DNA of 5,411 nt from Chloroflexota bacterium (GTDB taxonomy: Bacteria > Chloroflexota > Anaerolineae > 4572-78 > J111). The position numbers and the translations under genes were made by a program. The DNA is taken from contig RFJF01000562.1 of assembly GCA_003695455.1 (NCBI GenBank), positions 1 to 5,411 of the forward strand, given 5' to 3'. The notes below the pieces were generated by a model. That model ran no database searches. It was not told the origin of the DNA and was given only the letters and a program-made list of their open reading frames with translations. Of the stretch, positions 1,801 through 5,171 are shown in pieces (the first letter of the stretch is position 1; each line of letters starts with the position of its first letter).

Positions 1801-3177
1801 GTGAAACAATCGCTCGACGTACTTATTTTATTTGCGCTGGTTACGGCCCGTATCCGCATAGACACCCTGGCCGATAACGTGCTACCCCAGCGCCACGAAG
1901 ACGTGCGGCGGCTGGTAGAAGGCTGGTGGCCCGGCTGGAGTCTGGATTTGCTGGCCCACCCGGAAACCGACCCGGTCAGCATGATGCTCATTGTTGGCGC
2001 TATTTTTCTGCTTGTCCTCTATGTAGTAATTGATTTTTTTGGCCCGCCGCGCCGCGCCCGCGCCGTTCACCGGCTCAAACTGGTTTTAATTTACGGCATC
2101 ATCATTTTGCTGGTCTTTGGCAAAACCTTTTTGCTGACCAACCTGCGTCATCTGCGCGGCCCGGCCAGCTACGCCCACGATGGCGGGGTGATTCAAACTG
2201 AATCTACCATCGAGTTTTTTCTGACCGGCAAAAATCCCTACACAGAAGATTACACCAACACCCCCATGGCTCAGTGGGGTTTTTCCAAATACCGCACGGC
2301 GCTCTACCACTACCCCTACCTGCCGTGGACGTTTGTGTCATCGGCGCCGTTTTATCTGCTGGCCCAATCTACCATCGGCTGGTTTGACGAGCGCTGGCTC
2401 TACCTGCTGCTCTTTGCGCTCACGCTGGTTCTCACCCAAAAACTGGTGCGCCGCCCGCAAGAGCAGCGCATTGCCCTGGCCGTGATGGGCCTCAACCCGA
2501 TTCTGGCCGTCAGCATTATTTTTGGAGAAAACGACCCCTACGTGCTGGCCTGGATTGTGCTGGGGCTGTGGCTGCTGCAAAAAGAGCGCCCGCTGCTCGG
2601 CTCGGCGGCGCTGGGGCTGGCCTGCGCCAGCAAACCCACGGCCTGGTTTCTGGTTCCATTCTGGCTGCTGTTTTTGCTGCGCGACCGGTGGGGCAGCGCA
2701 CTTGTGCCGCCTGTCGCCCAGTGGAAGGGGCATCTGGCAAGCCTGCTGCGCCGGGCGTGGACTCTGCCCGCCGTGGCCCTGCTGTTGATTGGCCCCTGGC
2801 TGGCGTGGAACCCCGACGCCATGTACGATGATGTGTGGCGCTGGGCCAGCGGGCAGGGCGAAACCGGCTACCAGATTTGGGGCTGGGGCGGCAGCAACCT
2901 GGTGCTGGCCTTTGGGCTGGTCGCTGATCGATTTGAATACTGGCCGTTTGTCATCCCCGGCGCACTGGTGAGTATCCCGTTGCTGCTGGCGCTGTTGTGG
3001 CGGCAAGCCAAACAGAACACCATCGGCCTGATGCTGTACGGTTACAGCCTGTTTTTACTGGTATTCTTTTACCTGTCACGTTTTTTGCAGCCCAACTATC
3101 TGGGGTACATTCTGGCCTTTCTGGCGCTGGCGGTGCTGATATCCGATGGCGAACGACGAACGACGAACGACGAATGA
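1801..3177 (+). CDS. Polytopic membrane glycosyltransferase-like protein (GT-C / DUF2029-like)
   Basis: This 458-residue integral membrane protein has about ten or eleven hydrophobic spans (for example 61-80, 92-112, 177-190, 197-212, 225-240, 247-260, 282-293, 321-335, 383-400, 408-425, 432-447). Its loops resemble GT-C fold glycosyltransferases of the mannosyltransferase/DUF2029 type. There is an aspartate in HDGGVIQTES (126-134) after the early helices, then LTGKNPY (141-147), YPYLP (171-175), FGENDPY (241-247) and a lysine in CASKPT (275-280). Such enzymes move a sugar from a polyprenyl-phosphate sugar to an acceptor on the outer membrane face; donor and acceptor cannot be told here. The GTG start has AGAGG (1791-1795) five bases upstream and a strong extended -10 before it; an internal ATG at 1981 would lose the first 60 residues. 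The last residues, ERRTTNDE, come from a 7-bp repeat that also supplies the TGA stop. It leads a probable operon with the peroxiredoxin and plsC. Confidence 0.75.
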   Translation: MKQSLDVLILFALVTARIRIDTLADNVLPQRHEDVRRLVEGWWPGWSLDLLAHPETDPVSMMLIVGAIFLLVLYVVIDFFGPPRRARAVHRLKLVLIYGIIILLVFGKTFLLTNLRHLRGPASYAHDGGVIQTESTIEFFLTGKNPYTEDYTNTPMAQWGFSKYRTALYHYPYLPWTFVSSAPFYLLAQSTIGWFDERWLYLLLFALTLVLTQKLVRRPQEQRIALAVMGLNPILAVSIIFGENDPYVLAWIVLGLWLLQKERPLLGSAALGLACASKPTAWFLVPFWLLFLLRDRWGSALVPPVAQWKGHLASLLRRAWTLPAVALLLIGPWLAWNPDAMYDDVWRWASGQGETGYQIWGWGGSNLVLAFGLVADRFEYWPFVIPGALVSIPLLLALLWRQAKQNTIGLMLYGYSLFLLVFFYLSRFLQPNYLGYILAFLALAVLISDGERRTTNDE

Positions 3178-3178
3178 C
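3151..3178 (+). repeat. 7-bp tandem repeat (four units) spanning a stop codon
   Basis: GAACGAC is repeated at 3151, 3158 and 3165, followed by GAATGAC at 3172-3178. The array codes for the last residues of the glycosyltransferase-like protein, and its final, diverged unit provides the TGA stop (3175-3177). A C-to-T change in the last unit is what makes the stop, so the C-terminus seems to have grown by repeat expansion. Confidence 0.85.
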
Positions 3179-3192
3179 TCACCAATCACCAT
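3179..3192 (+). repeat. Second 7-bp repeat, two units
   Basis: TCACCAA (3179-3185) and TCACCAT (3186-3192) follow the GAACGAC array directly, again with a 7-bp period but another unit. With only two copies, chance is possible; adjacency to the first array makes a common origin likely. Confidence 0.5.
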
Positions 3193-3196
3193 TTTC

Positions 3197-3202
3197 AGGA
3201 GG
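3197..3202 (+). promoter_or_regulatory. Ribosome binding site deciding the peroxiredoxin start
   Basis: A perfect AGGAGG lies four bases before the ATG at 3207. It fixes the start of the peroxiredoxin and rules out reading the sequence before the in-frame TGA as the tail of some other gene. Confidence 0.85.
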
Positions 3203-3206
3203 AATA

Positions 3207-3671
3207 ATGCTTAACGAACAAGATATGGCCCCGGATTTTGAATTACTGGATGATTCCGGCAATTCTGTCAAACTGTCCGATTTCCGCGGCAAGCGGGTAC
3301 TGCTCTTTTTTTACCCCAAAGCCATGACCAGCGGCTGAACGGTGCAGGTACAGGGAGTCCGTGACGACTTCAGCAAATTTCAAAATGCCGGCGTGGTAGT
3401 GTTGGGCATCAGCCCGGACCCGGTCAAACGGCAAGCCAAATTCAAGGAAAAAGAGGGCCTGCCCTTTGCCCTGCTGGCCGACGAAAATCACAAAGTAGCC
3501 GAAATGTACGGCGTGTGGGTAGAAAAATCCATGTACGGCCGCAAATATTGGGGCGTAGACCGCACCAGTTTTATCATTGACCCCGAAGGCCGGATTGAAA
3601 CAATTTTCCGCAAAGTTAAACCTCAGCAGCACAGCGCGCAAGTGCTGGCTGCATTGGGTGTTACAAATTAA
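3207..3671 (+). CDS. bcp: Selenocysteine-containing Bcp-type peroxiredoxin (TGA at 3336-3338 read as Sec)
   Basis: This is a 154-residue thiol-dependent peroxidase of the Bcp/PrxQ family, which reduces hydrogen peroxide and organic hydroperoxides in the cytoplasm. The frame carries one TGA as codon 44. Left of it: APDFELLDDSG (8-18) and LLFFYPKAMTSG (32-43). Right of it: TVQVQGVRDDF (45-55), VLGISPD (65-71), FALLADENHKVAEMYGVW (87-104) and DRTSFIIDPEGRI (118-130). E. coli Bcp reads PKAMTPGCTVQACGLRD, so the TGA replaces the peroxidatic cysteine exactly. Thr41 and Arg119 of the active site are kept. The resolving cysteine is Gln49, and no cysteine remains in the protein, leaving Sec44 as the sole redox residue. 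The full family length is reached only by reading through. TGA ends the preceding gene, so the code is not globally changed. A TGC-to-TGA mutation or sequencing error is the alternative. The gene lies 29 bases after the glycosyltransferase-like gene, and its stop abuts plsC. Confidence 0.88.
3339..3371 (+). promoter_or_regulatory. Candidate bacterial SECIS element
   Basis: Directly after the TGA, GGAGTC (3354-3359) can pair with GACTTC (3366-3371), a 6-bp stem with one G-U pair and a six-base loop CGTGAC that starts 22 nt after the TGA. Bacterial SECIS elements are local hairpins inside the coding sequence at about this distance, with a G among the first two loop bases, which holds here. An exclusive alternative pairs ACGG (3339-3342) with CCGT (3359-3362), with AGGT in the loop as in the E. 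coli fdhF element. I cannot choose between them by eye. Confidence 0.5.
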
Positions 3672-4379
3672 ATGAACGTTGTGCCGCAGCGCAAAACCCG
3701 GGCCAAACAGTCTACCGACTGGCGCAAAAACAGAACCTGGCCTACCCAACGCACCCCGTTTATGTTTGTCTGGAAAATCATTGGCCACATCATTTTCTGG
3801 CCCACATACAGCGTAACCTGGGAAGGGCTGGAAAACCTGCCGGAAAGTGGCCCCTGCATTTTGGCCTCAAACCACGCCAGCAATTACGATTCCACGCTTC
3901 TTTTTTCAGAATTGTGGAAACGGTGGCTATTTTTTATGGCCAAAATGGAGCTTTACGAGGGCTGGTTTTTACGCTGGCTGTTGCACGGAATCGGCGCCTT
4001 TCCCGTAAAACGGGGCGAGGGTGACATTTGGGCCATCGGCCACGCTGGCCGGGTGTTGAAGGCCGGGCGAGTGTTAGGTATGTTTCCGGAAGGGACGCGC
4101 AGCAAAACCGGCGTACTCCAAACCGGAAAAACCGGCACGGCAAAACTGGCCCTGCACCACAAAGTGCCGGTTGTGCCGGTGGCCGTGCTGAACACCAACA
4201 AAATTACAAACTGGCATGGGCGGGTGCCTGTTACCGTAAAAATTGGCAAGCCCATTGATTTGGTGTCGCTGGCCGGGCCGGGGCGGCACGACCAACAAAC
4301 CTTTCACAATTTGACCACGATTGTGATGCGGGAAATCGCTGCACTAATGCCACCGGAACTGCGGGGGATTTACAAGTAG
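3672..4379 (+). CDS. plsC: 1-acyl-sn-glycerol-3-phosphate acyltransferase (PlsC family)
   Basis: This 235-residue member of the lysophospholipid acyltransferase family transfers an acyl chain to lysophosphatidic acid to make phosphatidic acid at the inner membrane face. All four motifs are present: NHASNYD (67-73) with the catalytic His68 and Asp73; GAFPVKRG (98-105) for substrate phosphate; FPEGTRS (128-134); and VPVVPVAV (155-162). A hydrophobic stretch at 31-45 should hold it to the membrane. The ATG follows the peroxiredoxin TAA with no gap and lacks a clear Shine-Dalgarno, so translation is probably coupled by ribosome restart. The first 30 residues are basic and not part of the family core; the ATG at 3762 (Met31) is a possible alternative start, but it too lacks a ribosome site. 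The exact acceptor (lysophosphatidate or another lyso-lipid) is inferred from the family. Confidence 0.93.
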   Translation: MNVVPQRKTRAKQSTDWRKNRTWPTQRTPFMFVWKIIGHIIFWPTYSVTWEGLENLPESGPCILASNHASNYDSTLLFSELWKRWLFFMAKMELYEGWFLRWLLHGIGAFPVKRGEGDIWAIGHAGRVLKAGRVLGMFPEGTRSKTGVLQTGKTGTAKLALHHKVPVVPVAVLNTNKITNWHGRVPVTVKIGKPIDLVSLAGPGRHDQQTFHNLTTIVMREIAALMPPELRGIYK

Positions 4380-4565: not shown

Positions 4566-5171
4566 ATGCTTTTCACTGCCAACATTATTTTTAAGGAGTT
4601 TGCCATGGGACGCACTGCATATTCAAATGTTCAGGCCTCACAGGCGTCTGGCGCGCCCTGGTGGCTGTTCGGGCTGCTGGTGGTCATTGCCTTGGCGGCC
4701 GTAGTTATTAGCTGGATGATGCGCCAAAAACAGCAGTCTGCATCAGAATCAGTGCCGGCCGCGCCACCGCCTCCCGAACCGGTTGCCATGCGCAGCACGC
4801 CGGTAGCGGTAGCGCCAGAACCGGAACCTGCCGCCGAAATTGCCCAAGCGGCGGAAGACACCGCCCCGGTTGAAGAAGCCGCCGAAGAATCTTCCGCCCC
4901 GGAAGCCCCGGCGGAGCCGGACAACCTGACCCGCATCGAGGGAATTGGCCCCAAAATTTCAAGCTGGCTCAACGATGCGGGCATCACCACCTTTGCCCAG
5001 TTGGCCGAGATGACACCGGAGCAAATTGCAGAAATTCTGCAAAACGCCGGTCACCGGATTGCCAACCCCGCCACCTGGCCGGAGCAGGCCAAACTGGCCG
5101 CCGCCGGCGACTGGGAGACACTGGCCGCGCTGCAGGATAACCTGCACGGCGGTCGCCGTCTGGCAGACTAA
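4566..5171 (+). CDS. Membrane-anchored helix-hairpin-helix protein (TRIEGIGPKI type)
   Basis: This 201-residue protein has a single membrane span at about 31-52 (APWWLFGLLVVIALAAVVIS, then MMRQKQQ on the cytoplasmic side). A low-complexity Pro/Ala/Glu linker follows (about 57-118), then a C-terminal helix-hairpin-helix domain (120-200) with NLTRIEGIGPKISSWL, AGITTFAQLAEM, ATWPEQAKLAAAGDWE and LQDNLHGGRR. This C-terminal domain is found in other bacteria as a tail on unrelated proteins (for example ribosomal L21-like and respiratory-chain-subunit-like proteins); its ligand is not established to my knowledge, and DNA binding is only suggested by the HhH fold. Two in-frame starts have good ribosome sites: 4566 (AGGAGG, spacing 6) and 4605 (AAGGAG at 4593-4598, spacing 6; 188 residues). 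I give the longer; the shorter fits the predicted membrane topology equally well. The gene stands alone after a repeat-rich spacer and converges with thrS. No clear promoter is visible. Confidence 0.85.
   Translation: MLFTANIIFKEFAMGRTAYSNVQASQASGAPWWLFGLLVVIALAAVVISWMMRQKQQSASESVPAAPPPPEPVAMRSTPVAVAPEPEPAAEIAQAAEDTAPVEEAAEESSAPEAPAEPDNLTRIEGIGPKISSWLNDAGITTFAQLAEMTPEQIAEILQNAGHRIANPATWPEQAKLAAAGDWETLAALQDNLHGGRRLAD
4593..4598 (+). promoter_or_regulatory. Second ribosome binding site, for the internal start at 4605
   Basis: AAGGAG lies six bases before an in-frame ATG at 4605, 39 bases after the first start. Having two good sites in tandem leaves the true start of the HhH protein open. Confidence 0.6.

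Follow-up and report, generated by a model that had tools for sequence, protein, structure and literature searches.

A Bcp-type peroxiredoxin gene of an Anaerolineae genome with an in-frame TGA, probably read as selenocysteine, at the peroxidatic cysteine

The window, as we call the whole 5,411-nucleotide stretch of DNA analyzed here, holds a Bcp/PrxQ-type peroxiredoxin gene between genes for a GT87-like protein and a PlsC-type acyltransferase (Table 1). The frame of the Bcp gene contains a single internal stop between its ATG and its TAA, the TGA of codon 44. Its read-through product matched the NCBIfam model PRK09437 (thioredoxin-dependent thiol peroxidase) over residues 2–150 with 187.7 bits (cut-off 140), in agreement with an earlier sequence-only reading that had noted Bcp similarity on both sides of the TGA. 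Pfam AhpC-TSA was matched with 134.3 bits (cut-off 26). Three solved Bcp-type PDB structures aligned across the TGA and all have cysteine at its column, as do 31 of 50 aligned loci, placing the TGA exactly at the catalytic cysteine as had been proposed. In the PxxxTxxC active site, here with TGA for the cysteine, P37, T41 and position 44 were invariant in the window and six relatives, as was R119, probably the active-site arginine of peroxiredoxins. The AGGAGG reported ahead of the ATG was likewise found. The frame was thereby confirmed as that of a Bcp-type peroxiredoxin interrupted only by the TGA. A mechanical ORF listing splits it into products of 113 (2997–3338, GTG start) and 109 amino acids (3342–3671). 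An annotation in two fragments, or as a pseudogene, had been anticipated.

Table 1. Features in and around the Bcp gene, numbered from the first base of the window.
Feature	Position	Strand	Remarks
GT87-like protein gene, upstream neighbor	1801–3177	+	Below the Pfam cut-off; terminates in TGA
AGGAGG ribosome-binding sequence	3197–3202	+	4 bases 5' of the ATG; direct reading
Bcp/PrxQ-type peroxiredoxin gene	3207–3671	+	Frame with one TGA read through; 154 residues and TAA
Thr41 codon, PxxxTxxC/U active-site motif	3327–3329	+	Invariant in the window and six relatives
TGA, codon 44	3336–3338	+	Peroxidatic-Cys column, predicted Sec; motif P37-x3-T41-x2-U44
Gln49 codon	3351–3353	+	Sec+5, where Bcp has its resolving Cys; locus alignment
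Candidate bacterial SECIS hairpin, CAGG-GAGU-CC(G)UG	3351–3363	+	Loop 3355–3358, 16 bases past the TGA; pairs and wobble-base constraint
Arg119 codon	3561–3563	+	Invariant in the window and six relatives
PlsC-type acyltransferase gene, downstream neighbor	3672–4379	+	Pfam scan

The GT87-like gene adjoins Bcp in all eight family loci compared and the PlsC gene in five of the eight (flanks of up to 1.5 kb), so the contig fits its family. An Rfam scan of the window returned nothing above gathering scores. Further downstream, 4566–5171 encodes a protein rich in Ala, Pro and Glu that appears to have a membrane anchor at its N terminus and carries a helix-hairpin-helix domain at its C terminus. Its tail is similar to tails in NuoE and ribosomal L21 models, with scores below their cut-offs.

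Homologues were sought in 150 genomes, namely the genome that holds the window (G000, an 87.46%-complete draft with 929 contigs and 4.38 Mb in total) and 149 relatives, and 144 of them gave a protein match. Fifty loci were aligned: the 30 best-scoring including the window, eight further listed TGA matches (E <1e-38) and 12 other listed matches. The catalytic codon was TGA in 19 and TGC or TGT in 31, figures that describe chosen loci and not a frequency for the class. The alignment thus revealed the Cys/Sec split that the sequence-only reading had suggested looking for. With 19 of the 50 loci sharing it at this codon, the TGA is not a chance event. The identical TGA occurs in 18 genomes besides the host, and the 19 loci are spread over five families of the class (f1, f3, f30, f43 and f40); one of them (L017, in G007) is cut by its contig end. 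A congener, G001, has a cysteine codon where the window has TGA. Among the best 80 named GTDB loci, 78 carry cysteine codons and two carry TGA, both from members of the host's own family (Chloroflexota, Anaerolineae), by which the host is placed in Anaerolineae: Anaerolineales isolate H5_CFX5 (G006, JABTUK010000002.1) and Anaerolineae isolate Zod_Metabat.569 (G009, JAFGNV010000020.1). Some 30 weaker listed matches of the Bcp search also carry one TGA.

The half of the gene beyond the TGA is under purifying selection. Its dN/dS was 0.12–0.21 against seven of eight family relatives (dS was saturated for the eighth), similar to the part ahead of the TGA and with no sign of relaxation. TGA also serves as a terminator, both in 8 of the 18 Sec-type genes with a visible end and in the GT87-like gene of the window. 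It is therefore a true stop here as well, and the internal TGA must be marked out.

A strong SECIS-like constraint was observed in the codons beyond the TGA. Of the 19 Sec genes, 18 read GGA-NTC at codons Sec+6 and Sec+7; the remaining one reads GGG-TTC. GGA encodes Gly+6 in 18 of 19 Sec forms, compared with 16 of 196 other glycine codons of the same genes, and all 19 have C as the last base of the +7 codon, compared with 42% of Val/Ile/Phe codons elsewhere in them. Relatedness among the genes makes the binomial p values of 4.5e-19 (GGA at Gly+6) and 6.5e-8 (NTC at +7) look stronger than they are. Glycine itself stands at +6 in all 19 Sec forms and in 14 of 31 Cys forms. In the 11 Sec genes of families f1 and f3, the third base of codons +3 to +9 had a mean entropy of 0.50, as against 1.14 for upstream codons and 1.20 for those from +12 onwards.

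As a fold on its own, the candidate hairpin is weak. None of 300 synonymous re-draws reached an energy as low as that of the pooled local folds of the 19 Sec genes. For the window stretch alone, 87 of 500 re-draws folded equally well, and a 55-base fold from the TGA was no better than shuffles (z 0.89). Sec and Cys forms averaged 3.89 vs 3.77 of five hairpin pairs in one register and 3.16 vs 2.48 of four in the other, and local fold energies did not separate the two groups (p 0.19). A published bSECIS model specifies a loop of 3–9 nt, a stem of 4–16 bp, G in the first two loop positions, a spacing of 16–37 nt and an MFE of ≤-7.5 (PMC13188914). The candidate fits in its GAGU loop, its four base pairs with one bulge and its spacing of 16, and its local MFE of -3.9 kcal/mol misses the -7.5 of that model.

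The machinery for selenocysteine was also surveyed. The sequence-only reading had recommended a search for the sel genes in the host and had regarded absence of all of them from a complete genome as refuting a selenoprotein. The host draft carries selB (302 bits, cut-off 242.25; the gene runs off the contig end) and a C-terminal part of selA that begins at a contig edge (208 bits, cut-off 267.9), so two of the four were recovered, one in part, and the refuting outcome was not observed. In this 87%-complete draft no selD scored over its cut-off, whether sought with the profile or with SelD of a family member, and no tRNA-Sec (selC) was found among the 150 of 675 candidates scored. Five loose tRNA-Sec matches in the host were rejected because ARAGORN types them as tRNA-Ser, -Leu and -Arg. 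The tRNA-Sec of G001 is identical to five family copies in 90–94 of 95 bases, so a copy in the host draft would probably have matched it as a query; that search, run without a positive control, gave no match. Contig ends lie close to tRNA-Sec in two relatives, at 9 bases in L158 (G003) and 2 bases in L159 (G005). Assemblies may break there, which could explain its absence from the host draft. With selD and tRNA-Sec undetected in the draft, the host's own Sec machinery is shown only in part.

The picture was fuller across the family. Among the 19 Sec-Bcp genomes, selA and selD each exceeded the curated cut-off in 17 and selB in 14 (for selB with all candidates scored), and tRNA-Sec was found in at least 13 (up to 26 candidates scored per genome). 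With the partial selA of the host counted, no genome among the 19 has fewer than two of these four genes. The best selD of all 17 genomes with a selD over cut-off carries an in-frame TGA itself. Over all 150 genomes, tRNA-Sec was found in at least 114 (up to 26 candidates scored per genome); with few candidates scored per genome, a selB or tRNA-Sec that seems absent may have been overlooked. The host and its sisters G001 and G007 share the lack of a SelD over cut-off by profile and by family query; all three have selB and a whole or partial selA, and G001 has tRNA-Sec. Other family members (G003–G006, G009, G010 and G011) have selD, and G008 does not. The gap in the three sisters probably reflects their drafts (87–90% complete), yet three in a row is odd. 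In G006, which is 96% complete, Sec-Bcp, selA, a TGA-bearing selD and tRNA-Sec occur with no selB over cut-off, all candidates having been scored; a frameshifted selB is possible there. G039, whose Bcp has cysteine and Gln+5, has none of selA, selB, selD and tRNA-Sec over cut-off.

Other explanations of the TGA were considered. A draft in 929 contigs, with an intact cysteine codon in the congener G001, could be taken to hold a decaying pseudogene or a sequencing or assembly error. This is highly improbable given 18 further genomes with the same TGA, the comparable constraint on either side of it and the nearly fixed codon choice at +6 and +7. A relic, in which the lineage has lost its Sec machinery, the TGA now terminates and the gene is newly dead, would agree with the missing selD of the three sisters, with tRNA-Sec not being found in the host and G007, and with the replacement of Sec by Cys in G001. 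Against this stand the host selB and partial selA, both cut by contig ends, the intact GGA-NTC signature of the window, the unrelaxed constraint past the TGA and the tRNA-Sec, selA and selB still present in G001, and we regard such a relic as very unlikely.

Reassignment of TGA in the host, for example to tryptophan as in code 4, might be read from 8 of 120 listed database proteins that have tryptophan at the catalytic column (P0003, P0004, P0007, P0012, P0017, P0019, P0020 and P0024). All eight have Gln+5 and Gly+6, and they are probably TGA codons that gene callers translated with code 4. As TGA terminates 8 of the 18 Sec-type genes with a visible end, and the GT87-like gene too, the probability of reassignment appears close to negligible. 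The gene is most likely a Bcp with selenocysteine at the peroxidatic position, inserted by SelB and tRNA-Sec with the predicted SECIS, a reading in which we have high confidence. The selenoprotein assignment made earlier from the letters alone is thus strengthened by the Cys/Sec split, the selB and partial selA of the host and the codon constraint.

The Sec forms also differ from the Cys forms in the resolving cysteine. This residue at +5 is absent from all 19 Sec forms, the window having Gln49, and present in 27 of 31 Cys forms (Fisher p 2.9e-10, a value that ignores relatedness). When an association of Sec with the lost resolving cysteine was tested by independent pairs on a 109-row tree, supported branches gave only two such pairs, too few for significance. 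Among the 78 named Cys forms the residue is kept in 70 and missing in 8; being common and not universal, it does not define Bcp, and Sec is not the sole route to its loss. Fifteen of the 19 Sec forms, the window included, contain no cysteine whatever (one of the 15 is cut by a contig end). From the missing resolving cysteine and these Cys-free proteins we infer a one-Sec cycle with an external thiol reductant. In the proposed mechanism, SelB and tRNA-Sec would decode TGA 44 as Sec, aided by the short predicted hairpin just 3' of it. The selenolate of Sec44, in the P-x3-T-x2-U motif, would attack the peroxide to give a selenenic acid. Its reduction would fall to an external thiol, for example thioredoxin, with no intramolecular disulfide of the kind formed in 2-Cys Bcp. 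An outside reductant would be needed because the window protein has no cysteine at all.

The history of the Sec and Cys forms was examined on two trees. The first, of 50 rows, was rooted at its midpoint only for display. It unites the 11 f1 and f3 Sec forms with the Cys form of G001 in one group (97/95), and the host, G001 and G007 cluster at 93/96. The Sec label requires four changes, at least three of them on supported branches. The simplest reading would be a reversion of Sec to Cys in the G001 lineage, whose Bcp no longer has the GGA codon. The 109-row tree was built without 49 of the 80 named loci and without 92 of the 120 listed proteins (the omissions include P0026, which is the window fragment, and P0028, whose motif is odd); support is poor in places, with 37 of its 105 inner branches open. 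It requires nine changes, tryptophan rows counted with Sec, and sets G001 within a group of five Cys rows. The clade with the f1 and f3 Sec forms holds 20 Cys rows, 13 without the resolving cysteine and 7 with it. These seven argue against a strict rule, and change within the clade could have run either way. Among the listed database proteins, 13 Cys forms lack the resolving cysteine, and in 11 of these the +6 residue is not glycine.

We advance a wider scenario tentatively, judging it somewhat less probable than its negation. Anaerolineae Bcp would be a one-selenium peroxidase, in which gain of Sec went with loss of the resolving cysteine, and often of all cysteines, and with dependence on an outside reductant. 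The SECIS would fix Gly+6. Some lineages would have reverted to Cys without a resolving cysteine and then dropped the glycine, a scar of the former selenoprotein. An earlier survey counted five Cys-to-Sec events and no Sec-to-Cys event for Prx (PMC1794560, Table 1) and described traces of SECIS elements in Cys members of other families (PMC1794560). A return in the G001 lineage, if true, would add to that table. Cys-type Bcp with Gln+5 from gammaproteobacteria (L113, L125, L130, L134 and L150) form one clade, with a Sec-like motif around a cysteine.

Among profile models, PRK09437 Bcp is matched over nearly its whole length, and the window differs from it by Sec (TGA) for the peroxidatic cysteine and glutamine for the resolving one. 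PrxU (NF040737), presumably a model of the E. acidaminophilum Sec-Prx, is also a peroxiredoxin, of another subfamily; the window product scored 67 bits on this 233-position profile, whose cut-off is 270. Sec peroxiredoxins of COG1225 with a TXXU motif have been listed with 43 sequences (PMC1088965), and the entry 'Peroxiredoxin (Prx), COG1225 (Bcp), TxxU' is tabulated elsewhere (PMC9312934). Prx TxxU is also given with 253 sequences (PMC2398784) and appears in PMC13188914, where the E. acidaminophilum Sec-Prx is cited; a further study counted 91 Prx selenoproteins across 78 organisms (PMC5029168). Tabulated since 2005 (PMC1088965, PMC9312934), Sec-Bcp is a known family, and Sec in place of a peroxidatic cysteine is the established pattern that the sequence-only reading took it to be.

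The window product, likened to COG1225 Sec-Prx by description, shares with it the Bcp/PrxQ domain, the TxxU motif, Sec for the peroxidatic cysteine and widespread Cys homologues. It is unlike that family in being Cys-free and in its Anaerolineae host, which the available portions of these sources do not name for it. Sec as such is known from Chloroflexi, for which the accessible part of PMC5736913 describes Sec formate dehydrogenases and does not mention a peroxiredoxin. A search of titles and abstract openings, outside the subscription literature, found no paper on Sec-Bcp in Anaerolineae. The gene would therefore be a new example, in Anaerolineae, of an established Sec-Bcp family and, as its sequence suggests, a real selenoprotein gene. 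Its annotation can be corrected, the split ORFs being one gene, and databases probably show some relatives wrongly as tryptophan proteins. It also places Sec-Bcp in a class where selB exceeded its cut-off in at least 121 of 150 genomes (up to eight candidates scored per genome). Close Sec/Cys pairs within one family may offer natural test enzymes for the benefit of selenium without a resolving cysteine.

A second TGA-bearing redox family, with a U-P-x-C motif, was seen in the four relatives read for it (L167, 396–878, plus strand; L168, 244–732, minus; L169, 275–754, minus; and L170). For the three scanned, the nearest NCBIfam model was SelL_rel_redox, at 60–74 bits and below its cut-off of 120.
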